A stretch of 64,000 nucleotides of DNA from Chloroflexaceae bacterium (GTDB lineage Bacteria; Chloroflexota; Chloroflexia; Chloroflexales; Chloroflexaceae). This document shows positions 25,401 to 64,000 of this stretch, one piece after another. The stretch lies in contig JANWYD010000007.1 of the NCBI GenBank assembly GCA_025057155.1, positions 62,001-126,000 of the forward strand. Reading direction: 5' to 3'. The position numbers were made by a program, and so were the translations under genes. Numbering within the stretch: the stretch's first letter is position 1; each line of letters starts with the position of its first letter. A model generated the notes under the pieces. The model made no database searches, was not told the origin of the DNA, and saw only the letters and a list, made by a program, of their open reading frames with translations.

Positions 25401-25765
25401 GGCAATGCTCCTCACCGGCCTCGCGGCCTCACAGGGGGCGCGGGGCGCAGACACACTAAGGCCGCGGCTTTCCCTGTCGTATCAGGTCTGCCGCGGCCAT
25501 CACGGGATTAACCGGCCATGGGGCGGCAATCAGGGGTCCGGGGGCGCGCCTGCGCGAACGGAGGCGACGGATCGCGACTGATCACGGTTCATCGAACACC
25601 TTTGCCCTTCTCGCGGTCGAATACTCCGTCCAGAGTAGCAGTCCGTGCAACTGTGGGCATCGGCCTGGAGACTGAACCACGCTCCACCGCTGCCGTGTGC
25701 TATGATACGCCGCACCGGCGCCGGGAACGGCCTTCGGCGAAGCATGCTACAGCTTGCGTACAACC
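25401..25765. other. Intergenic region between divergent exporter and oxidase genes
   Basis: No gene, repeat or clear promoter hexamer pair is seen. A TATGAT at 25701-25706 could be a -10 box for the plus-strand oxidase but lacks a convincing -35. Confidence 0.4.
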
Positions 25766-27112
25766 ATGACCATATTCGGGCGGAGGGTAGTAGTGATCGG
25801 CGCCGGGGTTGCCGGCCTGGCTGCGGCGCGACGTCTGCGTTTAGCCGGAGCGCAGGTGACGATGCTGGAACGGGCGCCGGCGCCCGGGGGCCGCGTGCAG
25901 ACGCTGCTGATCGAGGGTTGTCGCGTCGAGCTGGGGGCCGAGTTCCTGGCCGATTTTTATACCCGCACGCTGGAACTGGTGCGCGAACTGGGTCTGGCGG
26001 GGGAACTCCGCCGTATTCCACGCAGCGCTGCCACGCTCCGCGCGGGCCGTCTCTACCCCCTCTGGCCTGGTGTTGCCGCCGCGCTCACGCCCCTGGTCGG
26101 CCCGCGCCACAAAGTCGCGCTATCCTACCTGGTCGGCGCACTGGCGCGCCATCGCTCGCAGCTTGACACTCATGCCTTCCACAAGGCCTATGCCCTCGAT
26201 GATCGCTCCGTGGCCGAGTATGCCCGCGCGCATCTCTCCGAAGAAGTCCTGGAGTACGTGCTCCAGCCGCCGCTTTCGGGGATCTTTTACTGGGCGCCGG
26301 AGCGCACCTCGCGGGCCTTGCTCTTCCTGGCATTGCGCGCCGGCCTCAGCCGTCCCGCTGGTATGCGTCTCTACACCCTGCGCGAGGGCCTGGGACAACT
26401 GCCGGCGGCTCTGGCCGCGGGCCAGGATCTGCACACCGGGGTTGAAGTCGAGACGATAATACCTGACCCTGGCGCGGGCTACACCGTCTACGGGCGCGTG
26501 GGTGACACCCCGTTCTCCCTGGCCACCGATGGGGTGATCATCGCCACGACCGCCAGCACCGTGCCGCGCCTGCTCCCCTGGCTCGACGACCGCCAGCGCG
26601 CGTTCTTCTCCGCAGTCACCTATTCTACCACCACTCTGCTGGCTGTAGTCGTTCGTGATCATTTCCCGCGCCACACCTACGGCATGTTCTTTCCTCGCCG
26701 CGAAACCCCGTTTCTCGCCGCCGCCACGCTGCCGACGGTCAAGGATCCGGCCTTCGCCCCTCCCGACCGCGATGTGATCTGCCTGCGGCTGAGCGGCCGG
26801 GCCGCCGCCGCGTTACGCGAGTGCGCCGATGATACGCTGGCCTGCCTCATGCTCGCCGAATTGCGGCGTCTCGCTCCGGGCTTCGATCCGGCGCCTCGGA
26901 GCGTCTGTCAGCGCCTCTACCGCTGCGACGAGGCCCTGCCCGAGTTCGCCGTGGGGCATTTCCACCGGCTGCGGGCTTTCGCCTCCGGGGCGATCGAGTT
27001 GCCCGCGCTCGCCTTTGCCGGCGATTATCTTGGCGGGCCGTTCATCGAGGGCGCCATCGTGAGCGGTGAGCGTGCCGCAGAACGGCTGCTCGACCATCTC
27101 CGCGGCGGATAA
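25766..27112 (+). CDS. FAD-dependent amine oxidase / protoporphyrinogen oxidase-like protein
   Basis: 448 residues from the ATG at 25766 (TTG at 25754 is an in-frame alternative). The N-terminal dinucleotide-binding motif 'VVVIGAGVAGLAAARRLRLAG' with 'ERAPAPGGRVQTL' is the GG-doublet form typical of monoamine oxidase/phytoene desaturase/HemY relatives. The C-terminal FAD motif 'FAGDYLGGPFIEGAIVSGERAAERLL' is intact. Length and motifs fit the NAD(P)/FAD-dependent amine-oxidase superfamily; the substrate could be a porphyrinogen, carotenoid or amine and cannot be chosen from sequence. The gene is monocistronic and ends at a bidirectional terminator shared with the HU gene. Confidence 0.8.
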   Translation: MTIFGRRVVVIGAGVAGLAAARRLRLAGAQVTMLERAPAPGGRVQTLLIEGCRVELGAEFLADFYTRTLELVRELGLAGELRRIPRSAATLRAGRLYPLWPGVAAALTPLVGPRHKVALSYLVGALARHRSQLDTHAFHKAYALDDRSVAEYARAHLSEEVLEYVLQPPLSGIFYWAPERTSRALLFLALRAGLSRPAGMRLYTLREGLGQLPAALAAGQDLHTGVEVETIIPDPGAGYTVYGRVGDTPFSLATDGVIIATTASTVPRLLPWLDDRQRAFFSAVTYSTTTLLAVVVRDHFPRHTYGMFFPRRETPFLAAATLPTVKDPAFAPPDRDVICLRLSGRAAAALRECADDTLACLMLAELRRLAPGFDPAPRSVCQRLYRCDEALPEFAVGHFHRLRAFASGAIELPALAFAGDYLGGPFIEGAIVSGERAAERLLDHLRGG

Positions 27113-51474: not shown

Positions 51475-51504
51475 TTGCCCCTTCGCGGAGCGATTCTGTA
51501 TAAT
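51475..51504 (+). promoter_or_regulatory. Promoter of the giant DUF2298 gene
   Basis: TTGCCC (51475-51480), 18 nt, TATAAT (51499-51504), 71 nt upstream of the GTG start. Confidence 0.6.
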
Positions 51505-51575: not shown

Positions 51576-54500
51576 GTGAATATCGAACAGCCTCGCGTAG
51601 CTTCGCGCCGTAGCATCTTGCCAGCATCGTTGCGTTCGGTCTGGGCGTCGCGCATGCTGCTGGCGATCATCCTCTTGCTCGGGGCGTATTTCCGCACCCT
51701 CAGCCTGACCGATTGGGACAGCGACACCGGCCAGCACCCCGACGAGCGCTTTTTTTCCGTTGTCGCCTCGACGGTGCGGCTTCCCGGCAGCCTGGGCGAG
51801 TTGTACGACTCGTCGCGTTCTCCGCTCAATCCGCGCAACTACGACAGCTCTCCGCTATACGTCTACGGGCCTTTTCCGATCATCGTCACCAGAGTAGCGG
51901 CGGTAATGCTCACGCCTGCGGAGGCGCTGCCGGCGCAGACGCCGCGGATCAACGGGCCGCCGCGGGTGGGCGCCGACCCGATGTATCCGGGCGAGCAACG
52001 CACTGACTATGGTCCGCCGGTGGCGAATCCTGAGCGCGCCTTTCCCCGCGCCAGCCTGCTGATACCGCTGCTCAACCCCGAGGGTCGCGATCTGACCGCA
52101 TACGGCCAGATCCAGAAGGTCGGGCGCGGGCTGGCGGTGCTGTTCGATCTTGGCTCGATTGTCCTGGTGTATCTGATTGGGCGGCGGCTGTTTGGCCGGC
52201 GCATCGGGTTGCTGGCCGCGCTGCTCACGGCGCTGACCGTGATGCATATCCAGCAGTCCCATTTCTTCGTTGATCCCATCTTTTCTACCTTCTTCTGTCT
52301 GCTCAGCCTGTACTGGGCCGTGCGGGCGGCCCAGGGCGGCGGCTGGTTGAGTTATGTGGCGCTCGGTCTCGCCATTGGCGCAGCAATGGCGAACCGGATC
52401 ACGCTGGCGACGCTGGGGTTGGCGGCGATTGCCGCGGCAGCAGTGTCGGCATGGCGCCATGCGCAGGGCGCCAGCCGCGAGGAAGGCGCGCCGGTCGCCA
52501 CATTGGCCTGGGAACGATTTGTGAGTCGCGAGTTGCCGCTGCTGATCCTGGCCGGCACGCTGACATTGCTCAGTTTCCGCACCCTCGCGCCCGATGCGTT
52601 CACCGGCTCGACGCCCACGTCGCCAGCGCTTGTCGTCGAGGGCCGGCCGCAGGCGGCGGGCTGGCTCCAGGGGGCCGGTTTTCTCGACATCCGGCCCGAG
52701 CCGCGCTTTGTCAGCAATATCAGCGCGGTGCGGGCGCTAGTAAGCGGGGAACTGGATTATCCGCCTTCGCAGCAGTGGGTCGGGCGCACTCCCTACCTGT
52801 TTCCCTGGGTGAATATGGTGCTCTGGGGTATGGGTCCGGCGCTGGGGCTGGCAGCCTGGGGGGGCGCGGCGGCCTTTGCCCTCCGAGGGATGCGCCAGGC
52901 GCTGTGGCCGCAGCCGGCCCCTCCGCAGCTCAGCCCGGCCTGGGTGCTGCTGGCATGGATCGGCTTCTACTTCGGCTGGCAGGGGGGGCAGTTCGCGATC
53001 ACCCTGCGCTACCTGCTGCCGATCTACGGCGCGCTGACCGTGTTCGGGGCCTGGGGGCTCGTGCGCCTGGCCGACCTGGCGCGTCAGCCGGCGCCGCCGG
53101 GCTGGCGGGCGCTGGCGATCCGCGGCGGGCGGTGGGCGCTGCCGCTGGTGGCGCTGGCGACGCTGGCCTGGGCCTACGCCTTCTCACGGATCTACGTCCA
53201 GCCCCACTCGCGGGTGATGGCCGCCCGCTGGCTGGCCGATAACGCGCCGCCCGGCGCGTTCGTCATGTCAGAAGTCTGGGATGACCCGCTGCCCTTACAG
53301 GCCGCCGATGCCGCCTGGGGCCTGACCTTCCAGGGCCTCCAGTCGGCGCCGTATGCGGAGGATGAGCCGCGCAAGTACGTCGGCGGCATGGGGCTGAGCG
53401 GCGGCTACGAAGAAGGGCTGCTCGACCAGCTCGACCGCGCCGATTACATCACCCTCACCAGCAACCGCATCTACGACAGCGCCTCGCGGCTGCGCATGCG
53501 CTACCCGGCGCTGATGCGCTACTACCACGCCCTGTTCAGCGGTGAACTGGGCTTCCGGCTGGCGGCGGAGATCACCTCGTACCCGCACATTCTGGGGATT
53601 GAGATCCCCGACCAAGTGGCCGAAGAGGCTTTCCACGTCTACGACCATCCCCGGGTGCTGATCTTCGAGAAGACCGCGGCCTACTCCCGCGAGCGGGCCG
53701 AGGCGCTGATCACCGGCGACGTGCTGTGGGAGGAGGTGTACAAATCCCCGGTGCTGATCGCCGACCGCAACCCGGCAGCGCTGCGCCTGACCGACGGCCA
53801 GTGGCGCCGCTATGCCGCCGGCGGGGCCTGGGTGCTCGACGACCTGCCGCAGCCGCTCGCGCCGTTGACCTGGCTGCTGGCGCTGGAGGCGCTGGCTCTG
53901 GCGACCTTCGCCCTGCTGTTCCCCCTCCTGCCGCGCCTGCCCGACCGGGGCTTCAGCCTGGCGAAGATCCTCGGCCTGCTGCTCGTGGCCTACCTGGCCT
54001 GGCTTGCCGGCAGTCTGGGCAACGGACCAGGCATTCCCGGGCGCGGCAACGCTGGCGCGGTGGGCCGGGGGCCGTTCCCGCTGCCCTTCGCTCCGGCGAC
54101 GCTCTGGCTGTGCGCCGCCCCGCTGGTGCTGGTGGGCGCGGCGGCGGCCTGGCGCCAACGGGCCGAGTTGCGGGCCTTCGGGCGGGCGCGCCGCGCGGCC
54201 CTGCTGGGCGCCGAGGCAGTGTTTCTAGCCTTCTTCCTGCTGGGCATACTATTGCGCCTGCTCAACCCGGATCTGTGGCACCCGGCCCGCGGTGGCGAGA
54301 AGCCCATGGACTTCGCCTATTTCAACGCCGTGCTGCGCAGCGCCGCCTTCCCGCCCTACGATCCCTGGCACGCAGGCGGGTTCATCAACTACTACTACTT
54401 CGGCTTCGTGCTTGTCGGCGCGTTGACCCATCTCAGCGGCGCGGCGCCGGGGGTGGCCTACAACCTGGCCGTCGCCACCGTGCTCGGCCTCACCGCGCTG

Positions 54501-57500
54501 GGGTCCTGGGGCGCGGTCTACAACCTCCTCGGCGGGCGGGGCGATGCAGCCGGGGAGCAGCGGGCGCTTGCAGCCGCGGGACTGGCGCCGGCGCTGGGGC
54601 TGATCCTGGGCAACCTGGCCCAGGCCGTCTGGTTCCTCAACGGTTATGCTGCCGAGCAGGCGGCGAAGGGCCGTCCCGAGTGGGCCTACTGGGACGCGAC
54701 GCGGATCGTGCCGGGAACGGTGAACGAGTTTCCCTTCTTCACCTTCCTTTTTGGCGATCTGCACGCCCATATGCTGGTCATGCCGCTCAGCCTGGCCCTG
54801 CTGGGGCTGGCCGTGGCCTATGCGCGCGACGTGCCGCGCCAGGCGGGTCGCGCCGTGGCCTGCGCTCTGGCGATGGGCCTCCTGGCGGGAGCCATCCGTG
54901 CGACCAATACGTGGGATTACCCCACCTTCGTCGGCCTGGCCGCCCTGCTGCTGGCCGTGGCGGGCTGGCGGGCCAGCCGCGGGCAGGGGGTGGCCCGATC
55001 ACTGCTGTGGATCGCCGGGCCGCCGCTGCTGATGGCAATCAGCGGTAATCTGTTCTTCGCCCCCTTTGTCGCCAACTTCGCCACCGAGTCCTCAGGAGTG
55101 GAACTCTGGCGCGAGAGCATGGCTCCTACACTGCTCGGTCAGGTCCTCGGCGCGTCGCGGACGACGCTGCGCGAGGCGTTCCTGCTGTACGGTCACTGGC
55201 TCTTCGCCGCGGCCACCGCGGGGGCGCTCCTGCTCCAGCGCCTCGCCAGGCCAAAGGTCGCGGCGGGCGCGGCGGCCATCGCTGTGGGCATCGCGGTGAT
55301 CGGTCTGGCGCTACACTGGCCGGCCCTGGCGCTGCTGATCCCGCTGCTCGGCGCAGCGCTCTGGCTGCTGTGGCGCCTGCGACGCGCCCCGCTGGCGTTG
55401 CTGGTTCCGGGCCTCTGGCTGGCCGGGGGTCTGGGCCTGCTGGCGCTGGTGGAGGTGGTGACGGTCAGGGGCGACATCGGGCGCATGAACACGGTGTTCA
55501 AGTTCGGGCTGCACGCCTGGATGCTCTTCGCCCTGGGGACTGCGGCGCTGCTCCCACGCCTGTGGGCGGCGCCGGGCGTCGTACCGCGCCTGATCACGCG
55601 CGGCGGAATGGTGCTGCTGGCCGTCGCAGCGCTGGTCTACCCCCTCACCGCGACCCCGGCGCGCGCCGCCGACCGCTGGGCGCCCGACGCGCCGCGCACG
55701 CTCGATGGGGCGGCATTCATGGCCGCGGTGTCCGCGGAACGTTACGGAGAGGCCTTTTCGGTAGATGAAGATGCTGCGGCGATCGCCTGGTTGCGGCGCA
55801 ATGTCTCCGGCACGCCAGTGATCCTCGAAGCGCACCAGCCCTCCTACCAGTGGGCCGGGCGCGTCGCGGCGCACACGGGCCTGCCCACCCTCCTGGGCTG
55901 GGAGTGGCACCAGGTGCAGCAGCGCAACGCCGTGGGCGCGGGACCGGTGATCGCCGCGCGCCAGCAGGCCGTGCAACGGATCTACGCTGGCGCCGACCCC
56001 GACGAGGCGCTGGCCCTGCTGCGGCGCTACGGCGTAGAGTACGTCTACGTCGGCGGTGTGGAACGGGCCAGTTACGACCCGGCTGGCCTGGCCAAGTTCG
56101 AGCAGTTGGCCGCGCGGGGTGATCTGGAGCGGGTCTTCACCCAGGGGCGCACGACCATCTACCGGGTCGCCGTGCCGGCGACCCCGCGGATGCTCACCAG
56201 CGACCTTGACGTGACCCCGCCCGCTGGTGATACGCCCCCGCTGCTGATGCTCAGGACGCCGGTCAACGAGTTGCCTGCCGTGGCTCCGGCGGCCTGGAAC
56301 CGCCTGGCGGCAGAGAACTCCTGGCTGGCGACCCTGGCCTGGCTCGCTGCGCTGTACGCCCTGGCCCTGCTGGGATTGCCGGCTGCCTATGCCGTCTTCG
56401 GCGGCTGGCGCGATGCCGGGTGGACCTGGGCGAAGCTGGCCGGGTGGCTGCTGGCGGGCTACGCGGTCTGGTTGCCGGCCAGTCTGGGCCTCTGGCGCCA
56501 TAATGGCGCGGGGTTGCCCCTGGGCCTGGCCCTGATACTGCTGCTGAACCTGGCGCTGCTCTGGTGGATGGGACGAGGAGCGAAGGAGGGCGCCCTGGCG
56601 CGCGTCGGGCACGGGTTGACCGACGTGGGACGGGCGCTGTGGGCGCGGCGGGTGGCTGTGCTGTGGAGCGAGGGCGTGTTCCTGGTCGGCTTCACCGGCC
56701 TGGCCCTGATTCGCGCCCTGAACCCCGACCTATGGCACCCGATCTGGGGCGGGGAGAAGCCCATGGAGCTTGGCTTCCTCAACGCCGTTCTCCGCAGCCC
56801 GGCGCTGCCGCCCTACGACCCGTTCTTCAGCGGCGGCTACATCAACTACTACTACTACGGCTATTTTCTCGTCGCCCTGCCGGTGCGGATGGCGGGCCTC
56901 CCCGCGGCGATGGGCTTCAACCTGGCCCTGGCGACGATCGCCGGTCTCACCCTGGCGACGGCCTTCGCTCTGGTCAGCCAGTTGACCGGACGGGCGCGCT
57001 ACGGCGCGCTCGCGGCGGCGCTGGTGGGCGTGGCGGGGAACCTGGCCGGCTTCTTCGCCGTGGGCTGGTCGCGAGGCTTTCCCGCCGTCGCCGAGGCGCT
57101 GCGGCAGGGCGGGCTGGCCGGCTTCGGGGCCAGGCTCGGCGACTGGTTCGTCGGGCCGAGCCGGGTGATCCCCTATACCATCAACGAGTTCCCCGCCTTC
57201 GCCTTCCTCTACGCCGACCTGCACCCGCATACCATCGCCCTGCCGATCACGCTGCTGGCGCTGGCGCTGGGGTGCCGGCTGGCGGAGGGAAGGGCGCCGG
57301 CACCCGAAACGGAAGCCCGGGCGCTGCCGCAGGGCTACGCGCCCCTGCTCATGTTGGGGTTGACGCTGGGAACCCTGGCGGTGACCAACTCGTGGGACGT
57401 GCCGACCTGCGCCCTGGTGGCGGGTCTGGCGCTGCTGGGAGCAGCCTGGCGCGCGCCCGGCCCGCGGGCCGCGGGCGTGCCATGGCGCCGTCTGGTCCGG

Positions 57501-59306
57501 GCGGGGGTGGCGGCGGTGGCAGTGGTCATCGGCGGTCTGGCGCTCTTCGCGCCGTTCTTCGACCACTACTGGGCGCCGGTGGACGGTATCGGTCTGGTGC
57601 CGCTGGCCGATGGGACGACGCCGCGGGACTACCTGGTGATCTACGGCCTGTTCGTGGCGGTGCTGCTGCCCGCCCTGCTCGGCGCGGCCCGGCGCGTCTT
57701 CGCCCCGTCCCGGAGCGCTCGCGGGCGTTCCCCGGTCGCCCTGGGAGCGACCGTGGCCCTGGCGCCCGGCGCGGGGGCCTGGTTGCCGGTAGGGGTGGTC
57801 GCCGGCTTGCTGCTGTTGGGGGCCGTGTTGCCCACGGTGGGGCTGCGGCTGGCTCTGGTCGCGCTGCTGATGCTGGGAGCGACGGTGCTGCTACGGCGGG
57901 CCATCAGCACCCCCGTCTGGTACGGGTTGCTCCTGCTCTGGGTGGCCCTGGCAGTCTCGCTGGGGATTGAGCTGGTCTACATCCGCGACCACCTGGACGG
58001 GGGCGACTGGTACCGGATGAACACGGTCTTCAAGTTCGGGTTGCAGGTCTGGGTGTTGCTGGCGATCGCCGCGGCAGCCAGCCTGCCGCTGCTGCTACGG
58101 GGCGTGCGGCGGGTGTGGGGGTGGGCAGGCGCGGCGGTCACGCTGGCCGGTCTGGGGGTGCTGGCGACCCTTGCCGCAATCTACCCGCTTGCCGGCGTGC
58201 CGAGTCGCCTCGATACGCGCATGCCGGTGCGAACCGGGCCGACGCTCGATGGTCTGGCCTTTCTTGACCAGGCGCGCTTTACCTACGATTGCCTGGCGTA
58301 TGGCGGATGTGAGCCGGGCGTGACGCAGGTGGAGGTGGATCTCTCCGGTGACGGGCCGGCGATCGCATGGTTGAACCGGGAGATTGAAGGCACGCCGGTG
58401 GTCGTGCAATCGAGCCTGTTCTTCTACCGGGCCTATGGCATCCGCGTGGCTGCCAACACCGGCCTGCCCACGGTGATTAGCGCGCTCCACGTCAACGAAC
58501 AGCGCGACCCGGCGGTCGCGGCCCGGCGCGAGCGCGAGCTGGACACGTTTTTCCGCACCCCCGATGTGGAAACGGCGCTGCGCTTTCTGGCGCGCTACCG
58601 GGTGGACTACATCTACGTCGGCGGAGTCGAACGCGCCTTCTACCCCGCGGCGGGCCTGGCCAAGTTCGAGCAGATGCGCGGCACGTACCTGGAGACGGTG
58701 TACGATGCGCGGCAGACACGCATCTACCGGGTGACGGGCGTACCTCCGGGCTACGCCTGGCGACCTCTGGCGGAAGGCAGTGCAACCACACGATTGACGG
58801 AGCCGCCCTCTGCCGAACTGGAAGAGTTGGAGACCGCTCTGGCGGCGAACCCCACCGACGGGCCGCTGGCCTTTGGCGTGGCTGTGCGTTACCGGGAGCA
58901 AGGCCGACTGGACGAGGCGGCGCGGATTCTGGAGCGGGCCGCGCGGGCCAACCCCCGCGACATCGGCGTGATGCATCTCTGGGGCGACATCCTGGCCGAG
59001 GCGGGACGCTACGATGAGGCCGAGGAGGCCTACCTGATGGCTGCCCGCGCCGAGCCGAGCGCCGCGAACTGGCACAAACTCGGCAGCGCGCTGCTGGCCT
59101 GGGGTCGCCTCGATAAAGCCGAGATCGCCCTGAGCCAGGCGGTGGTCGCCGACCCTTCCGCCCCCGACGCCTACTTCAGCCTCGGCAAGCTCTTCGCCCG
59201 GCAGGGCGACCGCGAGCGGGCGCGGGCCGAACTGGAGATCTACCTGGCCCTGGCCCCTGATGGCCCCTGGGCCGAAGAGGCGCGGCGGTTGCTTGGTGAT
59301 TTGTAG
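51576..59306 (+). CDS. 2576-residue membrane protein: GT-C glycosyltransferase-like part + two DUF2298 (Chlor_Arch_YYY) modules + TPR
   Basis: Starts at a GTG. Residues 1 to about 780 resemble GT-C glycosyltransferases of the ArnT/PMT (COG1807) type, with an acidic pair in 'QHPDERFF' (D56, E57) in the first extracytoplasmic loop and many helices. Module 1 (about 790-1570) and module 2 (about 1600-2390) each contain the same landmarks: 'NPDLWHP..GGEKPM', the YYY motif (INYYYFG at 937-943; INYYYYG at 1756-1762), 'NEFP.F.FL..DLH.H' (D1061/H1063/H1065; D1881/H1883/H1885), 'RMNTVFKFGL' and 'YIYVGGVERA..' near the module end. Residues about 2400-2576 are four TPR repeats. This matches the long architecture described for the Chlor_Arch_YYY family. 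Substrate and function are unknown; an envelope glycan or lipid-linked sugar role is inference. Confidence 0.85.
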   Translation: MNIEQPRVASRRSILPASLRSVWASRMLLAIILLLGAYFRTLSLTDWDSDTGQHPDERFFSVVASTVRLPGSLGELYDSSRSPLNPRNYDSSPLYVYGPFPIIVTRVAAVMLTPAEALPAQTPRINGPPRVGADPMYPGEQRTDYGPPVANPERAFPRASLLIPLLNPEGRDLTAYGQIQKVGRGLAVLFDLGSIVLVYLIGRRLFGRRIGLLAALLTALTVMHIQQSHFFVDPIFSTFFCLLSLYWAVRAAQGGGWLSYVALGLAIGAAMANRITLATLGLAAIAAAAVSAWRHAQGASREEGAPVATLAWERFVSRELPLLILAGTLTLLSFRTLAPDAFTGSTPTSPALVVEGRPQAAGWLQGAGFLDIRPEPRFVSNISAVRALVSGELDYPPSQQWVGRTPYLFPWVNMVLWGMGPALGLAAWGGAAAFALRGMRQALWPQPAPPQLSPAWVLLAWIGFYFGWQGGQFAITLRYLLPIYGALTVFGAWGLVRLADLARQPAPPGWRALAIRGGRWALPLVALATLAWAYAFSRIYVQPHSRVMAARWLADNAPPGAFVMSEVWDDPLPLQAADAAWGLTFQGLQSAPYAEDEPRKYVGGMGLSGGYEEGLLDQLDRADYITLTSNRIYDSASRLRMRYPALMRYYHALFSGELGFRLAAEITSYPHILGIEIPDQVAEEAFHVYDHPRVLIFEKTAAYSRERAEALITGDVLWEEVYKSPVLIADRNPAALRLTDGQWRRYAAGGAWVLDDLPQPLAPLTWLLALEALALATFALLFPLLPRLPDRGFSLAKILGLLLVAYLAWLAGSLGNGPGIPGRGNAGAVGRGPFPLPFAPATLWLCAAPLVLVGAAAAWRQRAELRAFGRARRAALLGAEAVFLAFFLLGILLRLLNPDLWHPARGGEKPMDFAYFNAVLRSAAFPPYDPWHAGGFINYYYFGFVLVGALTHLSGAAPGVAYNLAVATVLGLTALGSWGAVYNLLGGRGDAAGEQRALAAAGLAPALGLILGNLAQAVWFLNGYAAEQAAKGRPEWAYWDATRIVPGTVNEFPFFTFLFGDLHAHMLVMPLSLALLGLAVAYARDVPRQAGRAVACALAMGLLAGAIRATNTWDYPTFVGLAALLLAVAGWRASRGQGVARSLLWIAGPPLLMAISGNLFFAPFVANFATESSGVELWRESMAPTLLGQVLGASRTTLREAFLLYGHWLFAAATAGALLLQRLARPKVAAGAAAIAVGIAVIGLALHWPALALLIPLLGAALWLLWRLRRAPLALLVPGLWLAGGLGLLALVEVVTVRGDIGRMNTVFKFGLHAWMLFALGTAALLPRLWAAPGVVPRLITRGGMVLLAVAALVYPLTATPARAADRWAPDAPRTLDGAAFMAAVSAERYGEAFSVDEDAAAIAWLRRNVSGTPVILEAHQPSYQWAGRVAAHTGLPTLLGWEWHQVQQRNAVGAGPVIAARQQAVQRIYAGADPDEALALLRRYGVEYVYVGGVERASYDPAGLAKFEQLAARGDLERVFTQGRTTIYRVAVPATPRMLTSDLDVTPPAGDTPPLLMLRTPVNELPAVAPAAWNRLAAENSWLATLAWLAALYALALLGLPAAYAVFGGWRDAGWTWAKLAGWLLAGYAVWLPASLGLWRHNGAGLPLGLALILLLNLALLWWMGRGAKEGALARVGHGLTDVGRALWARRVAVLWSEGVFLVGFTGLALIRALNPDLWHPIWGGEKPMELGFLNAVLRSPALPPYDPFFSGGYINYYYYGYFLVALPVRMAGLPAAMGFNLALATIAGLTLATAFALVSQLTGRARYGALAAALVGVAGNLAGFFAVGWSRGFPAVAEALRQGGLAGFGARLGDWFVGPSRVIPYTINEFPAFAFLYADLHPHTIALPITLLALALGCRLAEGRAPAPETEARALPQGYAPLLMLGLTLGTLAVTNSWDVPTCALVAGLALLGAAWRAPGPRAAGVPWRRLVRAGVAAVAVVIGGLALFAPFFDHYWAPVDGIGLVPLADGTTPRDYLVIYGLFVAVLLPALLGAARRVFAPSRSARGRSPVALGATVALAPGAGAWLPVGVVAGLLLLGAVLPTVGLRLALVALLMLGATVLLRRAISTPVWYGLLLLWVALAVSLGIELVYIRDHLDGGDWYRMNTVFKFGLQVWVLLAIAAAASLPLLLRGVRRVWGWAGAAVTLAGLGVLATLAAIYPLAGVPSRLDTRMPVRTGPTLDGLAFLDQARFTYDCLAYGGCEPGVTQVEVDLSGDGPAIAWLNREIEGTPVVVQSSLFFYRAYGIRVAANTGLPTVISALHVNEQRDPAVAARRERELDTFFRTPDVETALRFLARYRVDYIYVGGVERAFYPAAGLAKFEQMRGTYLETVYDARQTRIYRVTGVPPGYAWRPLAEGSATTRLTEPPSAELEELETALAANPTDGPLAFGVAVRYREQGRLDEAARILERAARANPRDIGVMHLWGDILAEAGRYDEAEEAYLMAARAEPSAANWHKLGSALLAWGRLDKAEIALSQAVVADPSAPDAYFSLGKLFARQGDRERARAELEIYLALAPDGPWAEEARRLLGDL

Positions 59307-59334
59307 GCTCAAATGATGGCCGGTTGCAGGAGAG

Positions 59335-59398
59335 TGGGGAAACCAGGTTTCCCCGCACCCCCGCCCGATGGGAGGGTCCGGGAGGGCTACGTCCTCCC
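59335..59398. repeat. Family A palindrome joined to a family B unit
   Basis: GGGGAAACCAGGTTTCCCC (59336-59354) then CACCCCCGCCCGATGGGAGGG and CCGGGAGGGCTACGTCCTCCCAGG, the same A-then-B order as near 18010-18080. It lies between the two DUF2298 genes. Confidence 0.75.
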
Positions 59399-59426
59399 AG
59401 GACAACACCTCCGCATCAAAAGACAT

Positions 59427-61937
59427 ATGGCATCTGACCTTCTCATCTGGTGGTTGATCACCTCCCTGATCGGCCTGGCGGGCCTGCCGCTGGCGAACTG
59501 GCTGCTGCGCGCCCTGCCCGACGGGGGCTTCAGTCTGGCGCGGCCGCTAGGGTTGCTGCTCACCGGCTACCTGGCCTGGCTGCTGGCGATGTTCGGGCTG
59601 GCTCCCTTCATCGCGCCAGTGGTTGGCTTCGCGGCGGTGGGGGTGGCGGCGCTGGGCGGGCCGCGGGCGGCGCTGGCGGCGGCGCAGGCGGCGCTGCGCG
59701 CCCGCTGGCGCAGCGTGCTGGCTGCCGAGGCGCTCTTCCTCGGAGCGTTGCTGGCCGCGGTATGGCTGCGGGCGCACGACCCGACGCCATGGGGCACCGA
59801 GCGCCCCATGGACTTTGCCTTCTTTAACGCGATCAGGCGCTCAGGAATGTTTCCGCCTGCCGATCCCTGGCTCTCCGGCTTCAGTATCAACTACTACTAC
59901 TTCGGCTATTTGCTTATGGCCACGGCGGCCCAACTGGCTGCCCTGGAACCGGCAGTCGCCTACAACCTTTCGCTGGCGCTGATCTTTGCTATGACGGCGC
60001 AGGCAGTGGGAGGCATGATTGCCAACCTGATCGCCCTGGCGGCGTGCGATGCCCCGCTCTGTCAGCAGGGTTGGCGCCGGTGGAGCGTGCCGTTCTTCGC
60101 CCTGCTGGGGGTGATCTTCGTGCTGGTGGCGGGCAACCAGTCGGGCGCGCTCCAGGTGCTGCTGGGCGATGAGCGGGTGGTAGCCCTCGACGGGCGCCAG
60201 GCCCTGGCGGCGACCCGGCAGGCCCTGAGCGGCGCCGCGACGATCAGCCTGCCCTATCCCGCCGTGACCGGTGAATTCGGGACGATCAGCGGCTGGGAGC
60301 GGCGCGACAAAGTGGCCGACTTCAACTGGTGGTGGCCCTCGCGTTCGCTGTGGGATGCGCAGCGTCCGGGCGAGGAGCGGCGCTACACCATTACCGAGTT
60401 TCCCTTCTTTAGCTTTCGCCTGGGCGACATGCATCCCCACGTGATGGCCCTGCCCTTCGGGATGCTCGCCGCAGCCCTGGCCCTCGCCGTGCTGGCGCGC
60501 CCCGAGCCGCCGGCGCCGGGCCAGGGGCGGCGCGGCTGGGGCGAACTGGTGCTGACAGGGATCGCTATCGGCAGCCTCTACGCGATGAATAGCTGGGATC
60601 TGCCGACCTACCTCCTGCTCTACGCCGCCGCGCTGACCCTGCGCGTCTTCGCCAGCGACGCGCCGCGCCCCTGGCGCGCGGCGGGATGGATGCTTGTGCT
60701 GGTCATCGGTGCAGCCTATGTGCTGTTCCTGCCCTTCCATCTCACCTTCCGCTCGCTGGTTGGAAGCGCGCCGCCGCTGATCGATCTGCCCCTGATCGGG
60801 CGACTTACCAGCGTCATTGCGCCGTTTCTCGGCTCGCGCACGGGGTTGCACGCCTTCATCGTCATCTTCGGACTGTTTGCCGCGCCCATCATCGTCTTTG
60901 TGTACCTGATCGCGCTGCGACCGGCGACCTCGGAAGCGCCCGTGACGGCGCCTGCTCACGCTTCGAGCGCCTCGCTGACCTCGCATGTCGGAATCGCGGC
61001 GCTGACGCGGCCCTCCACCTCGCGCCTCCTGCTCTGGCTGCCTCCGGCGCTCCTGCTGGCCGGGCTGCTCGGCGGCTTTCCGCTGCTGGCCCTGGCGGGC
61101 CTGGGTATGCTGGCGCTGGCGCTGGCGCGAGAACTGGTCAGGCAGGCGGCCCAGAGCTTCGCCCTGCTGCTGGCCGCTCTGGGCTGCGCGGTGCTGCTGG
61201 GGGTTGAACTGGTCTATATCCGCGACGTCTTCGAGGGCTTCTCGGCGCGGATGAACACCGTGTTCAAGTTCTACTACCAGATCTGGCTGCTGTGGGGCGC
61301 GCTGGCGCCCTTCTGCCTGTGGTGGCTCCTGGCGCGGGCGGAGGGCCGGGCGCGCCTGGCGGGGTGGGGCGCCGCCGCTCTGGCCCTGGCGCTGCTGGGA
61401 GGGGCGCTGGTGTATCCCTGGTTAACGGTGCGCGAGTATGCGCGGGGAAGCATCGAGGGTCTGGCGGGGCGCACGCCGCGCGAACTCAGCCCCGCCGGGG
61501 CCGCGTCGCTGGCCTGGCTGCGACGCGAGGCCCCGCCGGGCAGCGTGGTGCTGGAAGCGGTAGCCGTGGAGGATCGCGCGGCCCAACGCTGCGGCGGCTC
61601 GTACAATGCTGAAGGTTACGGCGGGGTCGCAGCGGCTACGGGGATACCCACCGTGCTCGGCTGGGTCGGGCACCAGATCCAGTGGCGCGGCGGCGACCCT
61701 GAAGCCCGAGCCGAACTCGCGCCCCGCTGCGCGGCAGTGGATATGATCTACCTGACCGGCGACCCCTCCGAGGCCGAACGGCTGTTGCGGCAGTACGGCG
61801 TAGACTTCGTCTATATCGGCGCCCTGGAGCGGCGTCTATACCCCCCGGAGAGCCTGGCCAAGTTCGCGCGCCTGGGCGCGGTCGTGTTTGAGCAAGACGA
61901 GGTGACGATCTACCAGCTCACTCCTGCCGCCCCGTGA
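59427..61937 (+). CDS. Single-module DUF2298 (Chlor_Arch_YYY) membrane protein
   Basis: 836 residues from the ATG at 59427; the frame is open upstream to 59313 but that part reads through a repeat. The protein is hydrophobic nearly throughout, starting 'DLLIWWLITSLIGLAGLPLANWLL'. It has the same landmarks as each module of the preceding protein: 'TPWGTERPMDFAFFNAIRRSGMFPPADPW', YYY motif INYYYFG (154-160), 'TITEFPFFSFRLGDMHPHVMALP' with D334, H336, H338, 'RMNTVFKFYYQIWLLWG' and 'VDFVYIGALERRLYPPESLAKF' (in parts). This is the short architecture class of the family. Being 120 nt downstream of the long form on the same strand, it is probably co-expressed and may act on the same substrate. Function is unknown. 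Confidence 0.88.
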   Translation: MASDLLIWWLITSLIGLAGLPLANWLLRALPDGGFSLARPLGLLLTGYLAWLLAMFGLAPFIAPVVGFAAVGVAALGGPRAALAAAQAALRARWRSVLAAEALFLGALLAAVWLRAHDPTPWGTERPMDFAFFNAIRRSGMFPPADPWLSGFSINYYYFGYLLMATAAQLAALEPAVAYNLSLALIFAMTAQAVGGMIANLIALAACDAPLCQQGWRRWSVPFFALLGVIFVLVAGNQSGALQVLLGDERVVALDGRQALAATRQALSGAATISLPYPAVTGEFGTISGWERRDKVADFNWWWPSRSLWDAQRPGEERRYTITEFPFFSFRLGDMHPHVMALPFGMLAAALALAVLARPEPPAPGQGRRGWGELVLTGIAIGSLYAMNSWDLPTYLLLYAAALTLRVFASDAPRPWRAAGWMLVLVIGAAYVLFLPFHLTFRSLVGSAPPLIDLPLIGRLTSVIAPFLGSRTGLHAFIVIFGLFAAPIIVFVYLIALRPATSEAPVTAPAHASSASLTSHVGIAALTRPSTSRLLLWLPPALLLAGLLGGFPLLALAGLGMLALALARELVRQAAQSFALLLAALGCAVLLGVELVYIRDVFEGFSARMNTVFKFYYQIWLLWGALAPFCLWWLLARAEGRARLAGWGAAALALALLGGALVYPWLTVREYARGSIEGLAGRTPRELSPAGAASLAWLRREAPPGSVVLEAVAVEDRAAQRCGGSYNAEGYGGVAAATGIPTVLGWVGHQIQWRGGDPEARAELAPRCAAVDMIYLTGDPSEAERLLRQYGVDFVYIGALERRLYPPESLAKFARLGAVVFEQDEVTIYQLTPAAP

Positions 61938-62645: not shown

Positions 62646-64000
62646 ATGACCCATCACAGTGTTCCCGTGCTCGATTTTGGCTCGCAGACGGCCCAGTTGA
62701 TCGTGCGCCGCGTGCGCGAACTGGGCGTGTATAGCGAATTATTGCCCCACGACGCCCCCGCGGAACAGGTGCGCGCGCTCAACCCGGTGGGCATCATTCT
62801 CTCCGGCGGCCCCGCGAGCGTCTACGAGCCGGGCGCGCCGGCAATGCCCGCCTGGTTGCCCGCCAGCGGCCTGCCGGTGCTGGGGATCTGCTATGGCATG
62901 CAGTTGATGAGCCAGGCCCTTGGCGGCCTCGTGTTGCGCCACGAAACCCGTGAGTTTGGCCCGGCTACAATCGAGGTGCTCGACCCTGACGAACTCTTCG
63001 CCGGCACGCCGCTGACGCAGGCGGTGTGGATGAGCCATGGCGACCGCATCGAGGTCCTGCCGCCCGGCTTCCGCGCCATCGCCGCCAACCCCGCCACGCC
63101 CTTCGCCGCCATCGCCGATGAGGCGCGGCGCTGGTACGGGGTGCAATTTCACCCCGAAGTGGTCCACACGGTCCACGGGCGCGCCGTGCTGAGCAACTTC
63201 CTGTTTGGCGTCTGTGGCGCGGTGGCCGACTGGCGCCCCGCCAGCTTCGTCGCCGAGGCGGTCGAGCGGGTGCGCGCCCAGGCAGGCCCAGAGCGGCGGG
63301 TGATCTGCGCCCTCTCCGGGGGGGTGGACTCGGCCGTCGCTGCGCTGATCGTTCATCGGGCTATTGGCGACCGGCTGACCTGCGTGTTCGTGGATAATGG
63401 CCTGCTGCGGCTCGGTGAGGCCGAACAGGTGATCGCCACCTTCCGCGAGCACTTCCACGTGCCGCTGATCGCCGTGGACGCTCGCGAAGAGTTCCTCGCC
63501 GCGCTGGAGGGCGTGGCCGACCCGGAGCGCAAGCGCAAGATCATCGGCGAGAAGTTCATCCGCATCTTCGAGCGCGAGGCGCGCGCCCTGGGGAATGTGA
63601 ACGTGCTGGTCCAGGGCACGCTCTACCCTGACGTGATCGAGTCGAGCGCCCCCGACCGCCAGAAGGGCGTAACGATCAAGACCCACCACAATGTTGGCGG
63701 TCTGCCGGCGGATATGCGGATGGAGCTGGTGGAGCCACTGCGCTACCTGTTCAAGGACGAAGTGCGCGCGGCAGGGTTGGAGCTGGGTCTGCCCGAAGAC
63801 TGGGTCTGGCGGCATCCCTTCCCCGGCCCAGGGCTGGCGGTGCGCGTCATCGGTCCGGTGAGCTTCGCGCGGCTGGAGACGCTGCGCCGCGCCGACGCGA
63901 TCTTCCTGGAGGAACTGCGCGCCGCCGGTCTCTACCGCGCAACGCAGCAGGCCTTCGCCGTGCTGCTGCCGGTGCAGAGCGTGGGGGTGATGGGCGACGG
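62646..64000 (+). CDS. guaA: GMP synthase (glutamine-hydrolysing), 3' end cut by window edge
   Basis: 451 codons are visible of an expected 510-540. The N-terminal glutamine amidotransferase has nucleophile C82 in 'GICYGMQLM' and the His/Glu pair H169/E171 in '[10 protein letters not shown]'. The ATP-pyrophosphatase domain has the PP-loop 'SGGVDS' (224-229), '[15 protein letters not shown]' and '[10 protein letters not shown]', and the dimerisation domain begins with '[18 protein letters not shown]'. It aminates XMP to GMP with glutamine. The start at 62646 places '[12 protein letters not shown]' at residues 8-19 as in other GuaA proteins. Confidence 0.96.

Follow-up and report, generated by a model that had tools for sequence, protein, structure and literature searches.

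In the archaeal AglB of A. fulgidus, which belongs to the STT3/AglB/PglB family (PF02516), the metal ligands are D47, D161 and H163, and the second motif reads Asp-His-His (PMC8342417). Purified Agl23 (TIGR03663) of H. hispanica translocated M5GN2-PP-dolichol in liposomes and suppressed the loss of yeast rft1 (PMC11182771). Multi-component transmembrane glycosylation in Gram-positive bacteria combines a GT-A enzyme, a flippase and a GT-C enzyme (PMC8035078). For the DUF2298/YYY family (TIGR03662/PF10060), the literature searched holds no enzymatic or genetic data and no assigned function.

The window analyzed here is a 64,000-nt stretch of a Chloroflexaceae genome (contig JANWYD010000007.1, positions 62,001 to 126,000), and positions are counted from its first letter. 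Near its end, two adjacent genes carry three YYY modules, which we call alpha, beta (both in the long gene) and S (the short gene):

51475..51504, + strand: sigma-70-like promoter candidate TTGCCC-18-TATAAT, by consensus match only
51576..59306, + strand: long gene, 2576 aa, with a GT-C domain, alpha and beta DUF2298/YYY modules and TPR repeats (ORF, HMMs)
51576..53840, + strand: predicted N-terminal GT-C domain of the long gene, aa 1-755 (PF13231, AlphaFold2 model, fold comparison)
51735-51746, + strand: HPDE motif of the N-terminal GT-C domain, aa 54-57
53850..56177, + strand: alpha YYY module, aa 759-1534 (TIGR03662/PF10060, alpha clade, motifs); candidate metal-site residues E908, D1061 and H1063, also R1303
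56313..58742, + strand: beta YYY module, aa 1580-2389 (TIGR03662/PF10060, beta clade, motifs); candidate metal-site residues E1727, D1881 and H1883, also R2147
58809..59294, + strand: C-terminal TPR repeats, aa 2412-2573 (Pfam TPR families; TPR structures)
59427..61937, + strand: short gene, single YYY module of the S class, 836 aa (HMMs, tree, AlphaFold2 model); candidate residues E163, D372, H374 and R646 (P0002 numbering)
61473..61922, + strand: predicted C-terminal globular domain of the short protein, AglB-S2-like (fold match to 3vu0)

An earlier note on this DNA had described one motif set in triplicate, and all five motifs do occur once per module. GGEKPM lies at residues 906 and 1725 of the long protein and GTERPM at 161 of the short protein; NYYY(F/Y) follows at 938, 1757 and 193, EFPxFxFxxxDxHxH at 1051, 1871 and 362, RMNTVFKF at 1303, 2147 and 646, and Y(V/I)GxxER at 1491, 2347 and 834, the last figure of each set referring to the short protein. 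TIGR03662 scores 1217.8 bits on the long protein, where the match falls into two parts, and 603.9 bits on the short protein (curated cut-off 300.25), and PF10060 (DUF2298) also matches all three modules far over its cut-off; by these profile scores, the membership of the three modules in TIGR03662/PF10060 is not due to chance. HMM matches to PMT_2 (PF13231, aa 184-294 in the Pfam scan), TIGR03662 and TPR families place the two tandem modules between a GT-C-like domain and TPRs, as the note had it. Its module boundaries (790-1570 and 1600-2390) enclose genuine modules, but TIGR03662 sets slightly different limits, at 763-1531 and about 1580-2389. The alpha and beta modules are 33-35% identical to the short protein. 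A named match to the short gene is in Chloroflexales bacterium W4 (70% over aligned columns), and for the long-gene modules a named match in Oscillochloris sp. ZM17-4 reaches 61-66%.

The short ORF covers 59313-61937 (+) and offers in-frame ATGs at 59313 and 59427. The latter (MASDLLIWW...) is most likely the start because homologues begin there, and with it the third module is indeed a separate, co-directional gene 120 nt downstream of the long one. The promoter candidate is the sole match on the + strand between 51200 and 62500. Immediately after the short gene, the minus strand has an ORF of 358 aa (62739-63815, -) that gave zero Pfam matches at 1e-4 and may not be a gene.

The earlier note had proposed comparing predicted structures with GT-C folds, and the AlphaFold2 models of both the short protein and the N-terminal domain of the long protein turned out to be GT-C. 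The short-protein model, built with 66 related sequences, has a pLDDT of 89.8 and a pTM of 0.93. A Foldseek search of the PDB returned AglB (7e9s, 2.8e-5) first, followed by DPY19, AftA and STT3. In VIA comparisons, yeast STT3 aligned with a Z of 15.6 over 461 residues at 8.2 Å, and ALG12 with a Z of 14.6 over 322 residues at 4.2 Å; AglB (14.0), Pmt4 (13.7) and ArnT (13.1) came next. The best 47 rows comprised GT-C transferases, relatives sharing the GT-C fold (PIG-U) and AglB domains taken on their own; the rows below them were unrelated, with Z of 6.2 and below. The rmsd to STT3 is large (about 8 Å overall), so the domain arrangement differs. Residues 721-870 of the short ORF match the C-terminal domain of AglB-S2 (3vu0) with a Z of 11.3 and 2.4 Å over 115 residues, which identifies an AglB-type C-terminal central-core domain in the model. 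The long protein's N-terminal domain, modelled with a pLDDT of 87.9 and a pTM of 0.90, gave higher Z values, namely 26.9 with Pmt2, 26.1 with AglB and 24.8 with ArnT, and its loop-1 HPDE motif is nearly invariant.

Judged by these models, the short protein is a GT-C fold, and the N-terminal domain is one still more clearly, of the PMT/ArnT/AglB type. Of the conserved acidic positions typical of the GT-C superfamily, in external loop 1 and in a second motif, the former carries E163, D372 and H374, and the latter has HPDE in loop 1. The alpha and beta modules would share the fold through their homology to the modelled short protein, and the locus is thus predicted to encode four GT-C domains in two genes. 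The GT-C kinship suggested in the earlier note stands, but the nearest relative of the YYY module in the short protein is STT3/AglB rather than ArnT/PMT.

Searches of PDB sequences, with either the short protein or the DUF2298 profile, found chance matches only and zero glycosyltransferases, and the link to STT3 therefore needed structure and profile-profile comparison. Aligned with a profile of 18 archaeal STT3 sequences, DUF2298 scored 74.9 (P 1.2e-7); with reversed or block-shuffled STT3 the score was 32-36, and with an unrelated membrane family 17.7. A 38-letter DUF2298 stretch pairs with the AglB stretch starting G-N-D and brings E163 opposite AglB D47; RMNTVFKFYYQ pairs with the RFAYY segment of AglB, and the GWxGHE region with WWDYGH. 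The program's own alignment sets the second AglB motif opposite I-x-E-F-P, about ten residues before D-x-H. D372-x-H374 stands directly before a transmembrane helix, as the AglB motif does, and by inspection, in a gapless reading from this position, it would correspond to AglB D161-x-H163. The conserved Glu, Asp and His singled out in the earlier note thus match the metal site of archaeal AglB, the Glu by profile alignment and the Asp and His by inspection.

These positions are strongly conserved over S, alpha and beta modules (E163 93-100%, D372 95-100%, H374 and R646 100%). E163, D184, YYY, N218, R344, E362, D372, H374, H376, N426, W428, D429, R646, N648, K652, R805 and E839 are kept in nearly all classes, D184 being at only 60% in Chloroflexia beta. 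Because these residues are kept, all three modules of the long and short genes look intact at the sequence level.

We then propose that the YYY modules are probably extracytoplasmic GT-C transferases that use polyprenyl-linked sugars and act in one surface-glycan pathway. Within the STT3/AglB group, the three modules would form a divergent branch. As members of the GT-C family, they would be expected to catalyze transfer on the outer side of the membrane and to use a polyprenyl-linked donor. We infer metal binding, donor binding, transfer and the order of these steps as follows. In each module, a metal ion would be bound by the G-(G/T)-E-(K/R)-P-M motif of external loop 1, through its Glu, and by the D-x-H-x-H motif of the second loop, through its Asp and His. 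The Arg of RMNTVFKF (R646) may hold the phosphate of the polyprenyl-linked sugar donor, and the sugar would be passed, on the extracytoplasmic side, to an acceptor that rests on the C-terminal globular domain. Agl23-type proteins would be partners in the pathway, to which archaea and SAR202 may add a flippase-like protein (TIGR00374) and a flavoprotein of the PRK07233 type, and archaea also GT2 enzymes. A reasonable working parallel to GT2, TIGR00374 and YYY is offered by the Gram-positive systems.

The alternative that survives best is that the YYY proteins are true oligosaccharyltransferases, which transfer a preassembled lipid-linked glycan en bloc onto proteins and replace STT3/PglB in Chloroflexota. 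The top fold neighbours STT3/AglB, including the AglB-type C-terminal domain, and the profile homology to STT3 would fit, as would the pattern of STT3 itself: PF02516 is absent from the long and short proteins in the Pfam scan and from their own genome, and among 15 other non-archaeal genomes we found one weak match over the cut-off (25.7 bits) and two below it. However, the sequon-binding motifs were not found. WWDYG is not kept, the region reading GWxGHExQWRG in S, GWDWHQxQQR in alpha and otherwise in beta, and no TIXE/SVSE equivalent was seen in the DUF2298 alignment, from which loop 5 was judged; for these reasons the YYY modules do not appear to be canonical oligosaccharyltransferases. 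STT3 is moreover present in 18/18 tested archaeal genomes carrying DUF2298, which rules out a replacement of STT3 everywhere and argues against a simple substitute, and the adjoining genes for GT2 and flippase-like proteins would suit monosaccharide donors equally well or better. We therefore regard this alternative as unlikely. It is tempting to speculate, although we give it equally low odds, that YYY is a fourth branch of STT3-like oligosaccharyltransferases with another acceptor pocket, working with Agl23 in a surface glycosylation system common to Chloroflexota and archaea, and that Chloroflexia have fused three such GT-C steps into an assembly line on one polypeptide.

Agl23 is the constant partner of YYY. 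Among 201 Chloroflexota genomes, 125 have both YYY and Agl23, 5 YYY only, 1 Agl23 only and 70 neither (Fisher p 8e-47, a statistic that ignores kinship), and YYY lies within 5 kb of Agl23 in 40/42 genomes with both, among the matches listed. In genomes outside Chloroflexales, the genes after the short one encode Agl23-type proteins of about 590 and 1000 aa; the larger often carries NHL repeats. The Chloroflexaceae genome itself has its Agl23 pair (1217 and 822 aa) on another contig (C1:62830-69065; L144 4831-11066), between APH-type phosphotransferase and penicillin-amidase genes, and most related genomes hold a similar Agl23-like pair. TIGR03663 proteins match the GT-C family PMT_2. An NCBIfam scan gave no TIGR03663 match among the three YYY proteins, and a direct profile comparison of DUF2298 with Agl23 scored no better than the reversed control.

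Other genes accompany the pair in archaea and SAR202. A tight archaeal run (locus L127) reads Agl23, PRK07233 flavoprotein, GT2, YYY, YYY, TIGR00374, GT2, and other archaeal loci hold Agl23, PRK07233, GT2, TIGR00374 and YYY within 10 kb. In SAR202 loci, YYY, Agl23, TIGR00374 and a flavoprotein of the amine-oxidase type follow in the same order. The two L127 copies were considered as a counterpart of the bacterial long/short pair, a reading that was rejected because both fall among archaeal sequences. In the Chloroflexaceae genome, PRK07233 and TIGR00374 genes are present on other contigs, unlinked to the YYY locus. At 25754-27112 (+), the window also encodes a flavoprotein of 452 aa that resembles amine oxidases and phytoene desaturases and matches PRK07233 weakly (79 bits); two proteins more strongly related to PRK07233 are encoded on contigs C10 and C26. 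Conserved neighbours were seen elsewhere as well: in SAR202/Dehalococcoidia (L056, L059, L061, L066, L075, L076 and L085), the SRP receptor gene ftsY shares the strand of the short YYY gene and lies ~70-120 nt before it, and in Anaerolineales (L033, L060, L067, L071, L082 and L092) the YYY-Agl23 pair is followed on the same strand by cytidylate kinase and conserved genes.

This constant partner invites another explanation, namely that YYY proteins are flippases or scramblases of lipid-linked sugars, as reported for Agl23 on the strength of its translocation activity (PMC11182771), though TIGR03663 scores as PMT_2. The strictly conserved Glu/Asp/His candidates and the AglB-like C-terminal domain point to catalysis instead, and archaeal and SAR202 clusters already hold a separate flippase-like TIGR00374 gene. 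We consider the flippase role very unlikely and retain the extracytoplasmic transferase as the preferred reading.

The long and short genes themselves were expected in the earlier note to be possible parts of one system, and it proposed a survey of whether they are always neighbours. They often are, with the long gene always first: it precedes the short one on the same strand within 6 kb in 24/40 Chloroflexota genomes with both, among the matches listed. Strict linkage does not hold, the other 16/40 genomes being unlinked among those matches, some of them from contig breaks. At named loci the gap is often <100 nt or the genes overlap, and in genome G110 the stop codon of the long gene and the start codon of the short one share the sequence ATGA. 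In SAR202 and archaea, most genomes carry only the short form. In total, TIGR03662/DUF2298 was above cut-off in 130/201 Chloroflexota genomes, and YYY in 20/60 sampled genomes of the archaeal phylum of Methanoperedens. Haloferax volcanii and Methanosarcina acetivorans were the only members of the control set in which both TIGR03662 and TIGR03663 exceeded the cut-off, and a plasmid search found one archaeal gene only, split by the record start.

The main split is the same in two phylogenetic trees, a first one of 174 modules and a more careful one of 66, built under a mixture model. Chloroflexota short genes form one clade (99/95), and long-gene modules form another (100/99), which splits into alpha (100/99) and beta (90/80); archaeal sequences and one divergent Chloroflexota copy fall outside both. 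The Chloroflexales long gene is GT-C + alpha + beta + TPR, the TPR part being confirmed by HMM in this long protein and assumed from length in same-order relatives. Most Anaerolineae long genes are GT-C + alpha, with one GT-C + alpha + beta (L109), and those of Caldilineales and Ktedonobacteria are GT-C + beta, alpha being missing. The earlier note's count of exactly two architectures was thus too narrow, since the GT-C domain also occurs with one module, with alpha + beta but no TPR, and with beta. Nor is the long-gene module one orthologous group, since Caldilineales and Ktedonobacteria carry the beta type, not alpha. A simple reading would be a tri-domain ancestor with later losses.

A fourth YYY protein of the same genome lies outside the window (C20:67313-69643; L004/L145). 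It has 1020 aa, an N-terminal extension of ~220 aa and RMITIFKF instead of RMNTVFKF, and it falls in the Chloroflexia short clade on a long branch. Its gene adjoins MFS transporter and amidohydrolase genes.

In two long genes (L023 7989-14990 and L063 4145-11482), alpha has decayed to about 40-90 bits beside an intact beta. This decay, and the fact that multi-GT-C polypeptides are unusual, might suggest that the N-terminal GT-C domain is the only enzyme and that the modules fused to it act as scaffolds or sensors without catalysis, with the TPRs and the tandem arrangement serving assembly. But alpha, beta and S otherwise keep the same residues at 87-100%, and the loss of alpha with retention of beta in Caldilineales/Ktedonobacteria fits separate functions, so that we give this idea hardly any credence.

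Together, our results go beyond the earlier note in naming STT3/AglB as the nearest relative of YYY and Agl23 (TIGR03663) as its constant partner. DUF2298 may already be placed by Pfam in its GT-C clan; the superfamily placement would then be known, and what is new would be the STT3-like C-terminal domain, the division into three classes and the partnership with Agl23. With DUF2298 set beside STT3/AglB, with three named residues and a fixed partner, its function becomes directly testable. Chloroflexota, STT3-less in the genomes tested, may have an extracytoplasmic glycosylation route of their own, and a surface-sugar pathway common to Chloroflexota and archaea is predicted. The fusion of three predicted GT-C domains in one chain is an unusual case.

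Compared with known systems, the YYY modules resemble STT3/AglB/PglB in their predicted GT-C fold over most of the protein, the AglB-S2-like C-terminal domain, the acidic residue of loop 1, a loop 2 D-x-H as in A. fulgidus AglB, an Arg before a late transmembrane helix and detectable profile homology. They differ in that WWDYG is not kept and no TIXE was seen in the alignment, neither family's HMM search finds the other, R344, E362, N426, WDxP and YVGxxER are additionally conserved in YYY, and YYY coexists with STT3 in archaea. Agl23 is likewise a GT-C-like membrane protein, found in the same genomes and usually the same operon, but is without direct profile similarity to DUF2298 and is reported as a lipid-linked sugar flippase (PMC11182771). 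Within TIGR03662/PF10060, the tandem GT-C + alpha + beta + TPR was found only in the class of this bacterium, among the loci examined. The N-terminal domain of the long protein resembles PMT/ArnT (PF02366, PF13231) in its PMT_2 sequence match, its predicted Pmt2/Pmt4/ArnT fold (Z 24-27) and its HPDE loop-1 motif, and is set apart from them by its fusion to one or two YYY modules and TPRs.
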